Source of the DNA: Acidobacteriota bacterium | GTDB lineage: Bacteria; Acidobacteriota; Terriglobia; UBA7540 | Reading direction: 5' to 3' | DNA length: 32,561 bases | Assembly (NCBI GenBank): GCA_902812465.1 | Contig: CADDZE010000042.1 | Span: 1-32,561, forward strand | In this document: positions 23,398-32,327 of the stretch, in pieces | Layout: every line of letters starts with the position of its first letter | How positions within the stretch are numbered: position 1 is the first letter of the stretch | Translations under genes and position numbers: made by a program | The notes under the pieces: model-generated | Seen by the model: only the letters and a program-made list of their open reading frames with translations | Told to the model about the DNA's origin: nothing | The model's database searches: none

Positions 23398-24434
23398 CTA
23401 TACCTTGTAACCAACTAAAAGGCCCTTCGCGCCGGGCGATTGGATTGGAACGCGCTGAATGTCCCGGAAGCCGCATTGCTCAAGCCATTCCGTATGTTCC
23501 GCCCAGGTATAGTTGCGCCCTTCAGTTTCAATCAGCATGTTTAACGACATCAGGGCGGCAGGCGGCGGGCCGGTCTCGTCGTCGTCCATCATCAACTCGC
23601 TGACGATCACAGCGCCGCCTGAGGGCAACGCCTCGTAACACTTGCGCAGAATCGCGAGAGCTTTTTCCGGCGTCCAATCGTGCAAAATCATGGAGAGCAG
23701 AATCACGTCCGAGCCTTTAGGCAGAGCCTCGGTGAAGAAATCACCCCCCAGCGTGAGGATACGCTCCACGAGGCCGGCCTCGGTGATTTTCTCTCGCGCA
23801 ATCTCCAGAGCCGGCGCAATCTCGTAGACCACGGCCTAAGGTGCGGCCAGCGCTTGGCTGCCTCGGATGGAGTAAGCCCCCGAACCTTCGCCCACATCGA
23901 GCAGTTGGCGATATTTCGAGAAATCAAACGACTCCGCGACGACTCGGCCGGCCACCGCGCTGAGGCTGTGCATGGCTTCTGTAAAGCTGCGCTGTTCTTC
24001 AGGATGGGCGGCCATGGCCTCGAAAAGGCCGGGCTTGTCGACCCAGGTCTGCGCGCGGTTGGTTTTGAGCGCCTCCGTCAGACGGTTCCAGGGAAGATAG
24101 AGCCGCCGGTCAAGCATGGTCACGAAGCCGCCGAAATATACGGTTTGCCGCACACCAGGAGTTCTTCCGCCAAAGGAGAATTGAAAAATCGCCCCTCGCG
24201 CCGGACGAGCAGGCCCAACGCGGCGCACCCGCTCAGCAGCATCTTGGCCGGCCGCAAATGGAGTCCCAGCAGTTTGGTCAACTCCTCAGTCGTCGTACCT
24301 TGGCCCGAGATGTGCGTGAACAGATCCAACTCCACCGCTGAAGCCAGCGTCTTCGCCGCCCAGAAGCCCGTGGTGATCTGCATGAGCGGGATCGGCGTGA
24401 GTTGCGGCTTGGAACTTTGACCTGCTGTTTCCAT
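23398..24434 (-). pseudogene. O-methyltransferase gene, broken (copy 1)
   Basis: The translation, pieced together across frames, is a ~345-residue SAM-dependent O-methyltransferase of the plant/acetylserotonin type: an N-terminal dimerisation winged helix (GFWAAKTLASAVELDLFTHI, LGLHLRPAKMLLSGCAALGL), the SAM motif LLDVGEGSGAYS and a C-terminal catalytic part (ILLSMILHDWTPEKALAILR, GGAVIVSELMMDDDETG). ATG 24434 follows a strong GGAGGG ribosome binding site. A one-base loss near 24136-24141 shifts the frame after GKPY. A +1/-1 pair between about 23838 and 23872 garbles the segment that should read EAAKRWPHL. An in-frame TAG (23838-23836) then precedes AVVYEIAPALE. The total of 1037 bases (3n+2) agrees with one net deletion. 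Pseudogene is the simplest reading; sequencing error is the alternative. Substrate unknown. Confidence 0.85.
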
Positions 24435-24789
24435 CGGGACCCTCCTTGCTTGCAAGAGGCGGGCGGCGCGAGTGGCCTCCCTTCCGGAAGTCCACGACCG
24501 GCCACCCGGTGGTGGCTGCTGCCGCACGGCTTGGCCGGCGTGCACGCTGTTGCTGAGCCCTGGCAGACCGATAAACCTAAGAAGCAGATCCTTCGGCCGC
24601 AGGCAGCGTCTGCGCAGCACTTCGACCGCTGCGCTTCCCATTCCCATGCCAATCCTCCTTCGCCTCGCCCGTCTGCTTGCCGTCTGGGCTTCATTTTCAT
24701 AAGGCCAGCGCCACTCCGTGAAGCCAAGCCTTGCTCCCGCTCTGTTCGCCATGGGTTTCGAGACCGACTGCTTTCCCGCGCCTTGCCGC
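24435..24789 (-). other. Gap between the two methyltransferase copies, with a possible small reading frame
   Basis: No known gene is recognised in these 355 bases. On the minus strand an ATG at 24647 follows GAAGGAGGA by five bases, a very good ribosome binding site. It opens a frame of 71 codons (MGMGSAAVEVLRRRCLRPKD...) that runs in frame into the methyltransferase copy 1 start at 24434. It could be a small protein remnant or an unusual N-terminal extension. No homology is recognised. Confidence 0.3.
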
Positions 24790-25828
24790 TCACGGTTTGA
24801 CGCCCGTCACGATGCTCCAGTAACCGAAGGTGGGCGTGACCTTGATGTCGCGGAACCCGGCTTCGGCCAGCATTTCTGCGAGTTCGCGCCCGGAGTACTG
24901 CTGGCCGGTTACCCACAGAAGCATCGTGATGTTGAACGCGGCGACAGGGAACGGCCCCGTCTTGTCGTCATGGAACAGCATTTCGTGTAAGATAATGCGT
25001 CCGCCCGAGGGCAGGCTGTCAAAACTCTTGCGGGTCAGGAAGCGGCACTTCTCGGGCGGCCAGTCGTGATAAATGGCGGAGTAAAAGTGCGTGTCAGCAG
25101 GCGGGAAGAGCCCCTCTGCCCACATGTCGCCGACGGCAGTCTTGATGCGGCCAGCCAAGCCGTATTGTGGAATAAATTCCTCCGCCACCTCGCAGACAGG
25201 CGCGAGATCAAAAATGATAGCTTACAAATTTGGCCATCGAAGCGCCGCGCCGATGGAATGGCAGCCGGAGCCGCCGCCGATGTCCAGCATCGGGCGGTGG
25301 CGCAAAAGGTCAACCTTGTCCGGCCAAAGGAACGCGGGGCCCATGCTGTGCCCGTGCATGGCCAACGTAAACGCCCGCGCAAACTGCGCCTGCTCTTCGT
25401 GGGTTTTGAAGATGTCGCCACCCCCGTAAGCTTGCGGATGCGTTGATCAATACCGCCTTTATCAGAGAATCCACCGACCACACGGGAAAATTGTTCGTCA
25501 CCAAATCAAGGTACCCGCAGAAAGAGGCGGGGCTGGACTCCAAAAGATAATCGTCTGCAACCGGCGTCGTGGCATAGCGGCCATCCACAAGTTGGATGAA
25601 GCTGAGCGACGCGCACACCGCCAGGAGCGCTTCCGCGGGGCGGCGCTCGATTTTGAGCGCATCACACAGCTCACTTATGGTCAGGGGTTTCTCGGCAAGC
25701 AGCGGAAAGAGCTTGAGGTTGTGGGCGACCAAGACTGCGGGATAACCGAAAATCCCAAACAAAACGTCCCAAATCGGGCGGTCGTCTTGCCTCGGTTTGC
25801 GGATTTGTAAAGCCGGCGGTGCGTCCAT
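24790..25828 (-). pseudogene. O-methyltransferase gene, broken (copy 2)
   Basis: This is a paralogue of copy 1, again about 345 residues when the frame is repaired. It starts at ATG 25828 after a strong AGGAGG ribosome binding site, with a dimerisation domain (AHNLKLFPLLAEKPLTISEL, LSFIQLVDGRYATTPVADDY), then FKTHEEQAQFARAFTLAMHG, SAM motif MLDIGGGSGCHSIG, and catalytic region HFYSAIYHDWPPEKCRFLTR and IILHEMLFHDDKTGPFPVAA. A one-base insertion near 25428-25436 breaks the frame after NASA, and an in-frame TAA (25224-25222) lies between RWPNL and AIIFDLAP. The length of 1039 bases (3n+1) fits one net insertion. The stop sits at the same aligned position as the TAG in copy 1. The gene would have been transcribed ahead of copy 1. 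Confidence 0.85.
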
Positions 25829-26726
25829 TGGTTTCCTCCTTGCAGGGCGACCCCGCGGCAAGGCACTCCTTATTTTTCCGACGGGCTTCCAAGACCCTGC
25901 CTTCCGTGCTCGCATAACCCGTTGCGGCAGATGTTGTCAATACGTATTCCTGCGTATCGCAGCCACGAAGCGAAGGGAGCCGTGGCTTATCTGAATCATC
26001 GCGACCTTGTTACCCTGCTCGCGATTGCTCAGTAGATCTAAAGAAAGCAAACATGAGCCCTTCACCCATACTTCGTGCTAGTTTTACCTCGTGGTTGGGT
26101 CAAGCACGTCATGCTGCGGGCAGCAGGCTTAGTGGGCGGCGGGGATGTCCTAACTCCAATAACCGGTTCCTATCTAGAGAGTTAGATTAGATTGAAGATA
26201 GTGAGAGTGCTTTACCACCAAATGGTTTCCCAGTTCGCCCCAAGGTCCCGCTCCGATGGACGCATTTGCAGTGACATGCCAATTCGATGATTATGAAGTG
26301 CCCACAATTCCGCCGCTGAAGGATTAACGGGCCGGCCCGCCAAGTCTCTATACCATCAGTCGGCGCACTTCGAGTTTGCTTTTTGAACGCGACCTTCACT
26401 CTCGCCGCGGCCCATTCATCGCTGCCCATGACAGGCTGGCGCACTGCGTAGCGGTCTCAGCCTTTTCTCCCATAACCTTCGGCTGCCCGGCACGTACAAC
26501 CAAATTGGCGAATCCCACACCTCGAACCAGACAACTATCTCCATGGCGGGGCATGTCTCACGTCCGATACTCGAACATGATGGCCACCTCCGGTTGGAGT
26601 CCAAACGGCGGCCCTGGGCGCGATCACTTCAGCACCGCAGGGGCGATCGTAAGGGGGATGCGCTGCAAATGCTAACCAAGTCGACTAGCACCAGAGAATG
26701 GGGTGATCCTTAAGCTGTCGACCAGT
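25829..26726. other. About 900 bases without a recognisable gene
   Basis: I see no gene between the methyltransferase start and tRNA-Asp. Short frames on both strands lack ribosome binding sites and recognisable domains. On the minus strand near 25912-25940 a perfect TTGACA (25940-25935) is followed after 17 or 18 bases by only a weak -10, a possible promoter for the methyltransferases. It overlaps the palindrome AATACGTATT (25939-25948), which could be an operator. The lower G+C of parts of this stretch fits non-coding or decayed DNA. Confidence 0.45.
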
Positions 26727-27747: not shown

Positions 27748-30000
27748 TTACCTCTTTCTTCCATCCAGCCCTTCGAGCTTGGCTGCGGCCGGTGGGGCGA
27801 CGGGGTGAGCGCCATCCGGGAGGGAGGCCATAGGTGGCGAAGCATTCGCAGCGCGAGGATCCGTGCCTCCACGCACGGGCGCGATGAAGCGGTAGCCCCG
27901 CCGCGCCAGCGTTTCGACGTAACGGGGCTGCGTGGCCGAGTCACCCAAGGCCATCCTCAATCGTTTCACCGCCGCGTTGATGCTGTTCTCGAATTCTACA
28001 ATGGTATCGTCGGGCCACAGGCGCTGCTGGATCTCTTCGCGCATCACCACCTCACCTGCCCGCTCCAGCAATATCGCCAGGATTTGAAAGGATTGTTGGG
28101 GCAGCCTAACGCGGACGCCTTTGCGCCGTAGCTCGCCCGCTCGCAGGTCCACCTCGAAATCATCGAACCAAAGCCGTTCTACCACTGCTGCACCGGCGGG
28201 CCGCTCCATGACTAGCGCCAGGCTAGCTGCGATCGCCATTAGCAGGTCCTGGTCTTCACGGCTGTAAGGCTCCTCTGAACGCTTCTTCCCCAAAGCTAAC
28301 AATACTTGTCTGCGTGCGGGCGTCATCACGACGGGTACCAGCAGCTCAAGGCGGCTCTGCCGAAGGTAGTCCAGTTCGCCAGGGGGCAATTGCTCCTCAA
28401 GCCAGCCCACCTCCTCCTGTGTCACGTTCAGTGGTCTTCCCATTAGCCGGACCACAGAAACCAGCTTGCTGTCTGCGGGCAGAGGAGGGAGCTGTTGACC
28501 GCTAGGTATGGCGGAGACGCATCGATAAGACCTTTCCCCGGGGTCCTGAATTAAGAGCATGACGGTTTCGGGATGGAGGGCCGCTTCAATCTGTGTAACG
28601 ACGAATGGCGCCGCGCGCTCCCATTCCCCGGCAGCCCTCAGTCCCTCCGCCACCTGACGCAGCAAGCGGTGAGCATCGTAGCGCTCCCGGAAGAAGCGGC
28701 GGTCGAGCGAGTCCATCCAATTGCGCCGGCGCCAGTGGGCCAGGATGGCGACTCCGGCACCGGCAGCATACAGCCAGCCCCGAGAGTAGAGGATAGTCGC
28801 CAGCGGCGCATGCGGGTGCGCAAGTGAGTCACCCAGCAGAATCACGGCCAAGGCCGGTATAGGCGATAGCAACAAGCCACGAGCCGCCGCGTACTGGAGT
28901 CCCTGACGAATGATGATGCGAACGTCGAACAGTCGATGTCGAAGCACGCTATAAGCGAAACAAACGGGAAAGAAAAGATACAAGCCGGTAATCAAAGCGG
29001 GAATCGGCTCCACATAGTAGAGCCGCGCGATGCGTTCCGGTGCCGATACCCAGGCCAGTCCAACCGTCACTGCCCCCAGGCCGATCAGGGCTCCCACCAC
29101 CAGCACGCGTACGCGGCGCCGTTCGTTCGGGTCTTCCAACCGACTGTAGTTCTTGAACAGGAGCAGCAGGCCCCCTGCGAGGTAAGCGACATCGTAAAGA
29201 TTGTTCGTGTAAGGGTAGATTCCTGGTGTCCACGAGGGAATTACCGTCATCCTCTCGGGATGATAGATGACGCGAGCTGCGTGGTAGAGCCACGGAAGAA
29301 AGAGGGCCAGGGGAGCCCAAATGAGCACCCAAATCCAGCGTGCCTGAAAGAGCTTCCGCGGGAAAATGGCGAAGAAGGTTAGAGTTAGCTGAGCCCTGGC
29401 TAGGTCGGTGACCACCGGGATCCAGAGCAATGCGGATAGCCAAACCGGCAAATGACGCCACACTACTGCCACGCCCGGAGGCCATTGCAACCCAGCGATC
29501 GCGGCGCCGGCCAAGAAAAGGGCCCCCACACGGCTGACGGGATCGTCAGGGCGCTTGAAAGCGATCACGAAGCCGAGGACGAGCGTGACCAGCAGGCCGA
29601 TGAGCAATGCGATTTGGGCCTTGCCAAAAACCGAGCTGTACGAAGTCCACGACATTTGTTGATAATGGAGCGGGACATTGAACCACCCCCAGCGCTCAAC
29701 CTCGAGTTCCTGTGTCTCACCCACGCGTAGGTTAACGAAAACGGTCCACCAGTCCCAATCGTTGCGCACGGGACGCCCGTTGATAGCGCGCCAGCGGTCG
29801 CCCGCCCGCAGGCCAGCGCGCGACGCCGGAGTATCTGCAAGTACGCGCGTAACGACCCACTCGCCGCGGCTGCGATCCAGCTGATCCGAAGTCCCCATGT
29901 GTTCGGGTCCGCGAAACTGCACGTAAGTAAATAAAGTGAAGTAAAGGCCGAAAGAAGCGCCCATGACGTACACCCACCACGGTGCTCGTCTCCGCAGCAT
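27748..30000 (-). CDS. Membrane protein with PDZ, multiple TM segments, GAF and C-terminal winged-helix DNA-binding domain
   Basis: The 750-residue protein combines, in order: a membrane helix (about 8-28), an extracytoplasmic PDZ domain (about 38-105; TRVLADTPASRAGLRAGDRW), a block of about eight hydrophobic segments (about 128-420), a linker SLDRRFFRERYDAHRLLRQV, a GAF-like sensor (about 445-600) and a transcriptional-regulator winged helix (about 611-709; QSFQILAILLERAGEVVMRE, FENSINAAVKRLRMALGD, VETLARRGYRFIAPV). A disordered tail follows. PDZ-TM-GAF units are usually attached to kinases or phosphatases. Here the output is an OmpR/CadC-type DNA-binding domain, so the protein likely acts as a one-component regulator that binds DNA while in the membrane. 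No phosphoacceptor or kinase domain is seen. A promoter lies 80 bases upstream. The ligand and targets are unknown. Confidence 0.88.
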   Translation of the reverse strand: MLRRRAPWWVYVMGASFGLYFTLFTYVQFRGPEHMGTSDQLDRSRGEWVVTRVLADTPASRAGLRAGDRWRAINGRPVRNDWDWWTVFVNLRVGETQELEVERWGWFNVPLHYQQMSWTSYSSVFGKAQIALLIGLLVTLVLGFVIAFKRPDDPVSRVGALFLAGAAIAGLQWPPGVAVVWRHLPVWLSALLWIPVVTDLARAQLTLTFFAIFPRKLFQARWIWVLIWAPLALFLPWLYHAARVIYHPERMTVIPSWTPGIYPYTNNLYDVAYLAGGLLLLFKNYSRLEDPNERRRVRVLVVGALIGLGAVTVGLAWVSAPERIARLYYVEPIPALITGLYLFFPVCFAYSVLRHRLFDVRIIIRQGLQYAAARGLLLSPIPALAVILLGDSLAHPHAPLATILYSRGWLYAAGAGVAILAHWRRRNWMDSLDRRFFRERYDAHRLLRQVAEGLRAAGEWERAAPFVVTQIEAALHPETVMLLIQDPGERSYRCVSAIPSGQQLPPLPADSKLVSVVRLMGRPLNVTQEEVGWLEEQLPPGELDYLRQSRLELLVPVVMTPARRQVLLALGKKRSEEPYSREDQDLLMAIAASLALVMERPAGAAVVERLWFDDFEVDLRAGELRRKGVRVRLPQQSFQILAILLERAGEVVMREEIQQRLWPDDTIVEFENSINAAVKRLRMALGDSATQPRYVETLARRGYRFIAPVRGGTDPRAANASPPMASLPDGAHPVAPPAAAKLEGLDGRKR

Positions 30001-30080
30001 AGGCTTTAGCCTCGGGAGGTAACCTAAACCTTAACTTCGCGCGGTACCCAAGGGAGGTCGTCGGCTACCTGGGTGAAGGC

Positions 30081-30108
30081 AGTTTAGCACTCGGCTTGCC
30101 AAAGTCAA
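30081..30108 (-). promoter_or_regulatory. Promoter of the PDZ-GAF regulator gene
   Basis: Minus strand: TTGACT (30108-30103), a 16-base spacer and TGC-TAAACT (-10 at 30086-30081 with TG extension). The spacing and match are good. The leader would be about 75 bases. The rest of the 254-base gap (30001-30254) shows no gene. Confidence 0.55.
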
Positions 30109-30111
30109 GCC
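30093..30111 (-). promoter_or_regulatory. Inverted repeat overlapping the -35 box of the PDZ-GAF regulator gene
   Basis: GGCTTG (30093-30098) and CAAGCC (30106-30111) form a 6-bp inverted repeat spaced by 7 bases that covers the -35 box. It is a plausible operator, for example for autoregulation by the winged-helix protein. This is inference from position only. Confidence 0.35.
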
Positions 30112-30254
30112 ACGTTCCCCCCGCCCAATGGGACAGCAAGGCCTTCGAGGGCAAGTTGGAACGACGCTGGGCACTAAACGGTGGCTAGTTCCCTGTGGCG
30201 CTGGCAGCCGGATGCCGCGCTAAGGCGGGGAGCCTGCGACGGCAGCATTGCTCG

Positions 30255-32327
30255 CTACATGAAGTAGTCGAAGTCACGCTCCGTGCGCACGCGCCTCCGG
30301 ATGCGGAAGATGTGGGCTGGCGTGGTTTGGGGATGTAATTCGACGTAGTTTCTGGGGCCGTGCCATAGGTAACGGGCATCTGCCAGCAGATCGTGGACCT
30401 GGTAGGGTTGGTGGGGATCGATCGCCAAGCTCTCGAGCGGAAGCTCGACCATGCCGCATTGCATGTGGTGCGGATCAAGGTTGACGACCACCAAAATCAC
30501 ATTGGTCAAATCCTCGGTACTCTTCGTATAGGCGATGAGCTGCTCATTCTCCACGGTGTGAAAGCGCAGCGTGTGGTTAGTCTGGAGCGCCGGATTCTCG
30601 CGGCGGATGCGGTTAACGCGCCCTACCAGGTCCTTCAGGCTGTCAGGCCGGGTGATGTCCCAGTGCTTGATCTCGTATTTTTCCGCGTCCAGGTATTCTT
30701 CCCTCCCCGGGGCCAGCGGCCGGTTCTCGCACAGCTCGAAGGCCGGTCCGTAGATGCCGTAGCCGGCCGAGAGTGTTGCCGCCAGCACCAGGCGCACAAT
30801 GAAGGCCGGCCGCCCGCCATACTGCAGGTATTCGGTGAGGATATCTGGCGTGTTGGGCCAGAAATGCGGGCGGTAGTACTCCTTGAGTTCGGTTTGGGTT
30901 AGCTCGGTGAGGTATTGCGTCAGTTCCCACTTGGTGTTGCGCCAGGCAAAGTAGGTATAAGACTGCGTGAATCCCAGCTTGGCCAGGCGCTCCATCACCC
31001 GGGGCCGGGTGAACGCTTCAGCGAGAAAGAGCACGTCCGGATAGTCGCGCCGGATCTCCGCCAGGAGCCATTCCCAGAAGGCAAAAGGCTTGGTGTGGGG
31101 ATTGTCCACGCGAAAGAGGCGCACCCCTTGCTTGATCCAAAAGACCACGATGCTCTTCAACTCTTCCCACAGCTTGCGCCACTGCACGCATTCGAAATCG
31201 AAGGGATAAATGTCTTCGTACTTTTTGGGTGGATTCTCGGCATACTGGATGCTGCCATCGGGCCGGTGGCGGAACCATTCAGGGTGCTGCTTGACGTAAG
31301 GATGGTCGGGGGCGCACTGGAACGCGAGGTCCAGCGCGATCTCGAGACCGAACTCCCGTGCCTTAGCCACCAGGTGCTTGAAGTCTTCGAGTGAGCCCAA
31401 CTGCGGATGAACGGACTTGTGCCCTCCTTCCTCCGAGCCGATCGCCCAAGGGCTCCCCACGTCCTCCGGCCCCGCCTCGACGGCATTGTTCTTTCCTTTG
31501 CGGTGAACCCGGCCGATGGGATGAATGGGAGGAAGGTACAGGACGTCGAAACCCATCTCCGCCACATACGGCAGGCGGAGCTCGCAGTCCTGGAAGGTAC
31601 CGTGCCGGCCGGGCTCGGGAGAGCAGGAACGCGGGAACATTTCATACCAAGCGCTAAAGAGCGCTTGCCGTCGATCCACCACCACCGGAAGCAGCTTTTC
31701 ATAAGTCGCCGCCGAGCGCCGCTCCGCATGGCGGTCCATGAGCACCGCCAACTCCTCGCTGAACACTTCCTCCACCAGGGCGGGGTCGTTCGCCGAGGCT
31801 GATCCACCGTTTTGTTCGGCTCGCCTAGCGGTGCGCCGGAGCTCTTCGGCCAAGGCCCGCAGGCGTAAGCCGTCCAGGGCGCGGCCGTTGCCGCCGTGCG
31901 GTTCGGCCCGCTTCGCTGCCTGCTCAACCAGCTCAGCCCCTATAAGCAGGTCCACTGATACGTCCTGACCTGCCTCGACCTTCTTGCCCAAAGCCAGCCG
32001 CCAGGTGCGGAAATAGTCGACCCAACCTTGAAGGGTGTATTCGTAGCGGCCCATCTGGGGCACCTCGAAGCTGCCCATCCAGCGGTCGTTGCCCAGCTCG
32101 CACATCGGCGACTCATTCCACGCGGCTTCACCCACTCGCCGGTGGAGTACCACGGCGGAGACCAAGTCGTGCCCGTCAGCAAAGATATCCGCCGTGACGG
32201 TGACTTTGTCGCCCTCGACGCGCTTGATGGGATAGCGGCCTCCCTCGATTTGGGGGTGCACGTTTTCGATGACTACCCGGGGGGGTGGAGGAAGCTGCTG
32301 GCTGGCCCTGGCGCTGCGATGCTTCAC
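30255..32327 (-). CDS. glgE: GlgE: alpha-1,4-glucan:maltose-1-phosphate maltosyltransferase
   Basis: The 690-residue protein transfers maltosyl units from maltose-1-phosphate to linear alpha-1,4-glucans, the extension step of the GlgE glycogen pathway. It is a GH13 (subfamily 3) enzyme of normal length: an N-terminal domain (about 1-125), a helical insert, a (beta/alpha)8 barrel and a C-terminal beta domain. Catalytic residues are the nucleophile Asp408 in GVRLFRVDNPHTKPF and acid/base Glu437 in LFLAEAFTRPRVM. LYLPPIHPIGRVHRKGKNNA and NPPKKYEDIYPFDFE are GlgE hallmarks. It starts at GTG 32327 after a GGAGG sequence seven bases upstream. Partner genes (treS, maltokinase, glgB) are not in the window; the upstream side is cut by the repeat at the window end. 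Confidence 0.95.
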   Translation of the reverse strand: MKHRSARASQQLPPPPRVVIENVHPQIEGGRYPIKRVEGDKVTVTADIFADGHDLVSAVVLHRRVGEAAWNESPMCELGNDRWMGSFEVPQMGRYEYTLQGWVDYFRTWRLALGKKVEAGQDVSVDLLIGAELVEQAAKRAEPHGGNGRALDGLRLRALAEELRRTARRAEQNGGSASANDPALVEEVFSEELAVLMDRHAERRSAATYEKLLPVVVDRRQALFSAWYEMFPRSCSPEPGRHGTFQDCELRLPYVAEMGFDVLYLPPIHPIGRVHRKGKNNAVEAGPEDVGSPWAIGSEEGGHKSVHPQLGSLEDFKHLVAKAREFGLEIALDLAFQCAPDHPYVKQHPEWFRHRPDGSIQYAENPPKKYEDIYPFDFECVQWRKLWEELKSIVVFWIKQGVRLFRVDNPHTKPFAFWEWLLAEIRRDYPDVLFLAEAFTRPRVMERLAKLGFTQSYTYFAWRNTKWELTQYLTELTQTELKEYYRPHFWPNTPDILTEYLQYGGRPAFIVRLVLAATLSAGYGIYGPAFELCENRPLAPGREEYLDAEKYEIKHWDITRPDSLKDLVGRVNRIRRENPALQTNHTLRFHTVENEQLIAYTKSTEDLTNVILVVVNLDPHHMQCGMVELPLESLAIDPHQPYQVHDLLADARYLWHGPRNYVELHPQTTPAHIFRIRRRVRTERDFDYFM

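Follow-up and report, generated by a model that had tools for sequence, protein, structure and literature searches.

The gene at 27748-30000 on the reverse strand of the window (by which we mean the whole 32,561-nucleotide stretch of DNA analysed here) probably codes for a one-component transcription regulator embedded in the membrane and derived from a receptor Ser/Thr kinase by a swap of its output domain. The parts of this regulator are all of known kinds and their combination alone is new: a winged helix serves as the output of a PDZ-TM-GAF sensor, and the exchange of a kinase for a DNA-binding domain is visible.

Domain anatomy and surroundings of the regulator

The first-pass annotation of this DNA had described a single uninterrupted frame of 750 residues, and this is indeed what is present: the gene is one open frame with an ATG start and no internal stop, and it stays open for 10 codons further upstream (760 codons altogether). 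Its features are as follows.

27748..30000 (-): whole gene, PDZ / ~10-TM / GAF / winged-helix regulator of 750 aa (open frame, Pfam, AlphaFold2 model)
29911..29979 (-): TM helix 1, residues 8-30 (helix 8-30 in the AlphaFold2 model)
29665..29892 (-): PDZ domain, residues 37-112 (Pfam; RseP/DegP sequence matches; DegQ fold match)
28735..29631 (-): polytopic membrane domain of ~9 more helices, residues 124 to ~422 (model helices, hydropathy, conserved in orthologues)
28201..28674 (-): GAF domain, residues 443-600 (sub-threshold Pfam; fold match Z ~14)
28165..28203 (-): fusion joint, residues 600-612 (comparison with kinase relatives)
27877..28176 (-): OmpR/ToxR-type winged-helix domain, predicted to bind DNA, residues 609-708 (Trans_reg_C; ToxR fold match; conserved positions)
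27751..27876 (-): Pro/Ala-rich tail, residues 709-750, mostly disordered in the model (pLDDT <50 at 719-750)

The proposed domain order of PDZ, multi-pass membrane part, GAF and C-terminal winged helix is confirmed within this single frame by profile, AlphaFold2 model and fold matches taken together. The PDZ_2 profile matches residues 44-103 (E 1.2e-7, 32.4 bits, cut-off 27), the PDZ_6 and PDZ profiles likewise exceed their cut-offs, and Trans_reg_C matches residues 630-705 (E 4.7e-17, 62.3 bits, cut-off 26.2). The GAF domain fared differently in the domain search and structure prediction that the annotation had advised: by sequence, GAF_3 at residues 468-600 stays below the curated cut-off (E 0.0037, 18.1 bits versus 27), whereas by fold GAF domains are matched at Z ~14.

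The AlphaFold2 model, built from 63 aligned sequences, has a mean pLDDT of 81.8 and a pTM of 0.61, and displays TM1 at 8-30, a PDZ fold at 37-112, a GAF fold at 443-600 and a winged helix at 609-705. Further membrane helices are modelled at 124-149, 154-169, 186-212 (two adjoining), 221-246, 257-287, 291-318, 333-353, 380-394 and the start of 400-440; with about ten TM helices, the PDZ domain would lie outside, between TM1 and TM2 on the periplasmic side, and the rest inside. An amphipathic segment (RHRLFD..RQG, ~354-378) is located within the polytopic membrane domain, and a conserved FFRERYDA motif (436-443) just ahead of the GAF domain. At the joint, the C-terminal helix of the GAF domain leads nearly straight into the winged helix, at a point where the kinase relatives mostly carry a Cys ribbon and then the kinase. 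Comparison of folds by VIA-align, for which the whole model was taken as query and by which the membrane part was barely probed, identified the DNA-bound ToxR structure 8b4d_C as the nearest match to the winged helix (Z 16.4, rmsd 1.9, 105 aligned), 6oza_A as a match to the GAF domain (Z 14.7, rmsd 3.3, 160 aligned), and DegQ 3pv3_B as a match to the PDZ domain (Z 13.3, rmsd 1.6, 87 aligned).

A GlgE maltosyltransferase gene lies on the same strand (30255-32327 (-)), 254 bp upstream of the regulator. The annotation had suggested an inverted repeat in the regulator's own promoter. This suggestion was not supported: in the region between the two genes, 30001-30254, the best perfect arms measure 6 bp and are equalled in 28 of 40 mononucleotide shuffles, which is chance level, and a repeat search upstream of the regulator returned only arms that are imperfect or far apart, so that the repeat was rejected as an operator. 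A sigma70-like promoter match is present at 30081..30108 (-) (TTGACT-16-TAAACT, 9/12) and represents weak evidence; two such matches occur in the region versus 0.7 expected.

Conservation of the neighbourhood was also considered as a clue to function, and was rejected. Seven window proteins (GlgE, a DUF507-like protein, three methyltransferase pieces and two that we take to be rhodanese-like and GNAT-like) have no homologue beside relatives of the sensor, bar one unrelated methyltransferase match (at locus L080). Conversely, the loci of GlgE and DUF507, compared in 11 relatives apiece, contain neither a sensor nor a winged-helix match within flanks of ~1.5 kb. The sensor family does not keep GlgE as a neighbour in the flanks examined, so we draw no link to glycan metabolism. 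What several relatives have next to GlgE is an amylase-like stretch.

Kinship of the two halves

Judged by sequence, residues 1-606, which make up the sensor half, are orthologous to the membrane Ser/Thr protein kinases of Acidobacteriota, a relationship that the first-pass annotation had missed and from which the reading of the regulator as an output swap follows. The nearest relatives in 61 related genomes end in such a kinase behind a Cys-rich ribbon; identity with five of them is 38-47% over residues 1-606, and the order of PDZ, TM and GAF is the same; this homology, together with the RHRLFD and FFRERY motifs, places the regulator in the PDZ-TM-GAF receptor family of this phylum. When six kinase relatives were scanned with Pfam, each gave a Pkinase (PF00069) match with an E-value no weaker than 1e-41, the domain being C-terminal in five and N-terminal in one (L060). 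The comparison was extended to all other distinct close frames (bits 250 or more, de-duplicated by identical sequence only, with the window fragments L133 and L145 dropped and L001 identical to L096): 42 of these 43 carry a kinase and none a winged helix, the remaining one (L109, genome G298) being a broken kinase version in which the sensor end and ribbon are kept and the frame stops shortly past the ribbon. In the window protein, neither Pfam nor a purpose-built kinase HMM detected a kinase domain, and it is consequently not itself a receptor Ser/Thr kinase (PDZ-TM-GAF-STK).

Kinases such as L009, L010 and L011 are thus alike to the regulator in the whole of the sensor and in domain order, and differ in ending in a protein kinase, which a short Cys-rich ribbon (ECPxCGxCYD...C) usually links to the GAF domain, where the regulator has a DNA-binding domain. 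The ribbon is present in most kinase versions: its strict form, CxxCGxxY, occurs in 30 of the 42 kinase frames and a variant form in several others, while it is absent from some, N-terminal-kinase frames included, and from the window protein. Three frames combine the same sensor with an N-terminal kinase (L060, 3779-6634 (+); L106, 202-2064 (-); L126, 1361-3202 (-)), implying that the kinase has changed ends within this sensor family. The nearest relatives of full plan in the regulator's own genome share its sensor plan and end in other outputs, one being a PDZ-TM-GAF-SpoIIE phosphatase (L003, 29% identity) and the other a PDZ-TM-GAF-PAS-HisKA-HATPase histidine kinase (L005, 25%). PDZ-TM-GAF sensors therefore occur with three outputs besides the present one (Ser/Thr kinase, SpoIIE phosphatase and histidine kinase), in agreement with the annotation's statement that such modules usually feed histidine kinases or phosphatases.

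For the winged helix, 21 relatives at 49-67% identity were collected, most of them from proteins of related genomes in which a winged helix is combined with TM segments (wH-TM); the closest relative in its own genome is just 50% identical. We compiled 41 related winged-helix frames, being 43 rows minus the window's own row (L001) and a fragment of it (L145), with L177 a longer copy of L019; these are mostly best matches and not a random sample. The domain is N-terminal in 38 of the 41, starting at residue 96 or earlier, and a hydropathy scan placed a TM helix ahead of it in none. In the other three, all from the regulator's own genome, it is C-terminal and TM helices are absent. The difference from proteins of the CadC/ToxR type that had been put forward earlier is borne out by these counts.

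A tree of 49 distinct sensor segments, from which segments under 420 aa were left out, positions the window row inside a clade of 37 C-terminal-kinase and two N-terminal-kinase rows, with a support of 93/91 that is slightly under the star threshold; the position of this row within the clade is not settled by the tree. Since the window row is nested among kinases, the simplest reading is that the kinase was lost and the winged helix gained. A kinase remnant was sought elsewhere in the regulator's own genome and rejected, as the ribbon-kinase part has no close copy there and only general kinases were retrieved (best 45% over part).

No second fusion of this sensor with a winged helix was encountered in any genome set searched, and the architecture was seen in one draft genome. 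These sets comprise 396 genomes of the phylum (the sensor query matched in 16, the full-length query in 17) and 399 of the class (matched in 17), both drawn evenly from larger groups with 2-3 candidates scored per genome, as well as all available genomes of the family (39, matched in 5) and of the order (40, matched in 6); a contig pattern scan employed two short patterns and contributed 58 loci. The genome sets overlap, so these counts are not additive. Within the order, the winged helix occurs in G000 only and kinase versions in G002, G007, G016 and G019, the frame in G016 being broken by unknown bases. Candidate GAF-winged-helix fusions in relatives, consisting of nine matches that begin before query residue 600 and five other winged-helix matches, were rejected because all 14 carry the winged helix towards the N terminus, its first residue being 96 or lower (L181 was left out). 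The annotation's view of the architecture as unusual is in line with these searches, in which it did not prove widespread. A description of a PDZ-TM-GAF-winged-helix architecture was not found in the literature searched, a body of text to which most subscription journals do not belong.

Integrity of the fusion and alternative readings

Since the source genome is a draft (190 contigs, 4.16% contamination), the fusion might be an artefact, in which assembly merged the sensor part of a kinase gene with a winged-helix gene unrelated to it, or an indel erased the stop between neighbouring genes. We consider this unlikely. The fusion is indeed known from one draft genome only, and a pair of O-methyltransferase genes (Dimerisation + Methyltransf_2) lying side by side at 23398-25915 (-) is disrupted, with the parts of each gene in different frames; these are either decayed genes or assembly indel errors, and the contig may therefore contain errors of the latter kind. 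However, the regulator frame is open for its full 760 codons, and the joint falls after the GAF helix has ended (599) and before the winged helix begins its first strand (609). GC content is even across the joint (sensor 60.5%, winged helix 61.0%, window 60.4%), and both flanks fit the same family: the DUF507-like gene reaches 62-76% identity inside the family and no more than 54% beyond it, while the best near-complete matches of GlgE are in the family (up to 69%, the best outsider reaching 65%), which is evidence against a chimera of lineages. Furthermore, the 50% identity of the best winged-helix relative in the same genome argues against a duplicated copy, and if the two were separate genes the sensor would lack an output, a situation found in no intact close relative. 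In a leave-one-out comparison, the sensor keeps 29 of 29 positions conserved in 37 orthologues and the winged helix 27 of 28 positions conserved in its 21 relatives; hence, neither half looks like a decaying passenger.

This conservation also bears on the suggestion that the winged helix has lost DNA binding and become a module for protein-protein contact or dimerisation, with the receptor signalling via partners. Some OmpR-type domains do make protein contacts, yet the retention of nearly all conserved winged-helix positions, and a closest fold match that is itself bound to DNA, render this quite improbable. A different proposal is that an intramembrane or periplasmic protease frees the GAF-winged-helix part as a soluble regulator, the PDZ domain marking cleavage under envelope stress as in the RseP/DegS pathways. 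The PDZ domain is indeed nearest by sequence to those of RseP and DegP, but neither a protease nor a cleavage site was identified, and the module is common to kinases and SpoIIE phosphatases, in which release would have no evident role; we regard this proposal as highly doubtful.

Relation to known systems and proposed mode of action

ToxR and CadC activators carry an N-terminal winged helix, a single TM segment and then a periplasmic domain. The regulator shares with them the winged-helix fold (CadC 5ju7 was matched in addition to ToxR) and the nature of a one-piece membrane regulator; it differs in that its winged helix is C-terminal, after ~10 TM helices and GAF, and it falls outside their family. 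Neither is it an OmpR/PhoB response regulator, in which a receiver domain precedes the winged helix: a Response_reg match was lacking in Pfam up to E 1, and a GAF fold occupies that place instead. It does combine a DNA-binding domain (with DNA binding itself predicted) and TM segments in one protein, as judged by Pfam, hydropathy and the model, and would as such belong to the transmembrane transcription regulators, a known and widespread class of which, according to PMC10269533, 56% cross the membrane once and some as many as 22 times by TM regions. The one-component regulator CoxC, whose sensing of CO is shown by experiment (PMC11347149), resembles it in joining a transmembrane sensor to a C-terminal DNA-binding domain; yet CoxC pairs an MHYT sensor with a LytTR domain, and the abstract names neither PDZ nor GAF. 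The Pfam matches of the regulator include Trans_reg_C and no LytTR, which sets it apart from LytTR/MHYT one-component proteins. By plan only, it may be set beside the Bacillus sensor kinase ComP, which, according to PMC9620489, has ten TM helices, carries a PDZ fold in its first extracellular loop and ends in HisKA and HATPase_c rather than in a winged helix.

To return to the preferred reading of an output swap, the ancestor would have been a receptor Ser/Thr kinase of the order PDZ, ~10 TM, GAF, Cys ribbon and kinase, whose kinase half gave way to a DNA-binding winged helix like those of the wH-TM proteins that abound in Acidobacteriota. A working scheme may be drawn from the anatomy of the model. 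The periplasmic PDZ domain and the helix bundle would sense an envelope or membrane signal, with the long helix 400-440 relaying the change to the GAF domain; peptides at the PDZ domain and a small molecule at the GAF domain, as suggested in the annotation, are hypothetical inputs. The exit helix of GAF (581-599), being nearly continuous with the winged helix, could then reset the pairing of two winged helices, and the altered pairing would alter DNA binding while the protein is still in the membrane. The direction of replacement, the topology, the dimer mechanism and the DNA binding are each put forward here as predictions.

We lean towards viewing this as the rewiring of a receptor in one lineage by gene fusion with retention of the sensor, in which the PDZ-10TM-GAF block would act as a plug-in receptor that can drive outputs of four different kinds (Ser/Thr kinase, phosphatase, histidine kinase and DNA-binding domain) via the same GAF exit helix. 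The fusion illustrates how a receptor kinase may be rewired into a one-component regulator, and it provides a matched pair in which one sensor is linked to a kinase in sister genera and to a DNA-binding domain here. What the kinase family senses is otherwise hard to learn in uncultured Acidobacteriota, and identifying the genes controlled by the winged-helix version could show it for the family as a whole.
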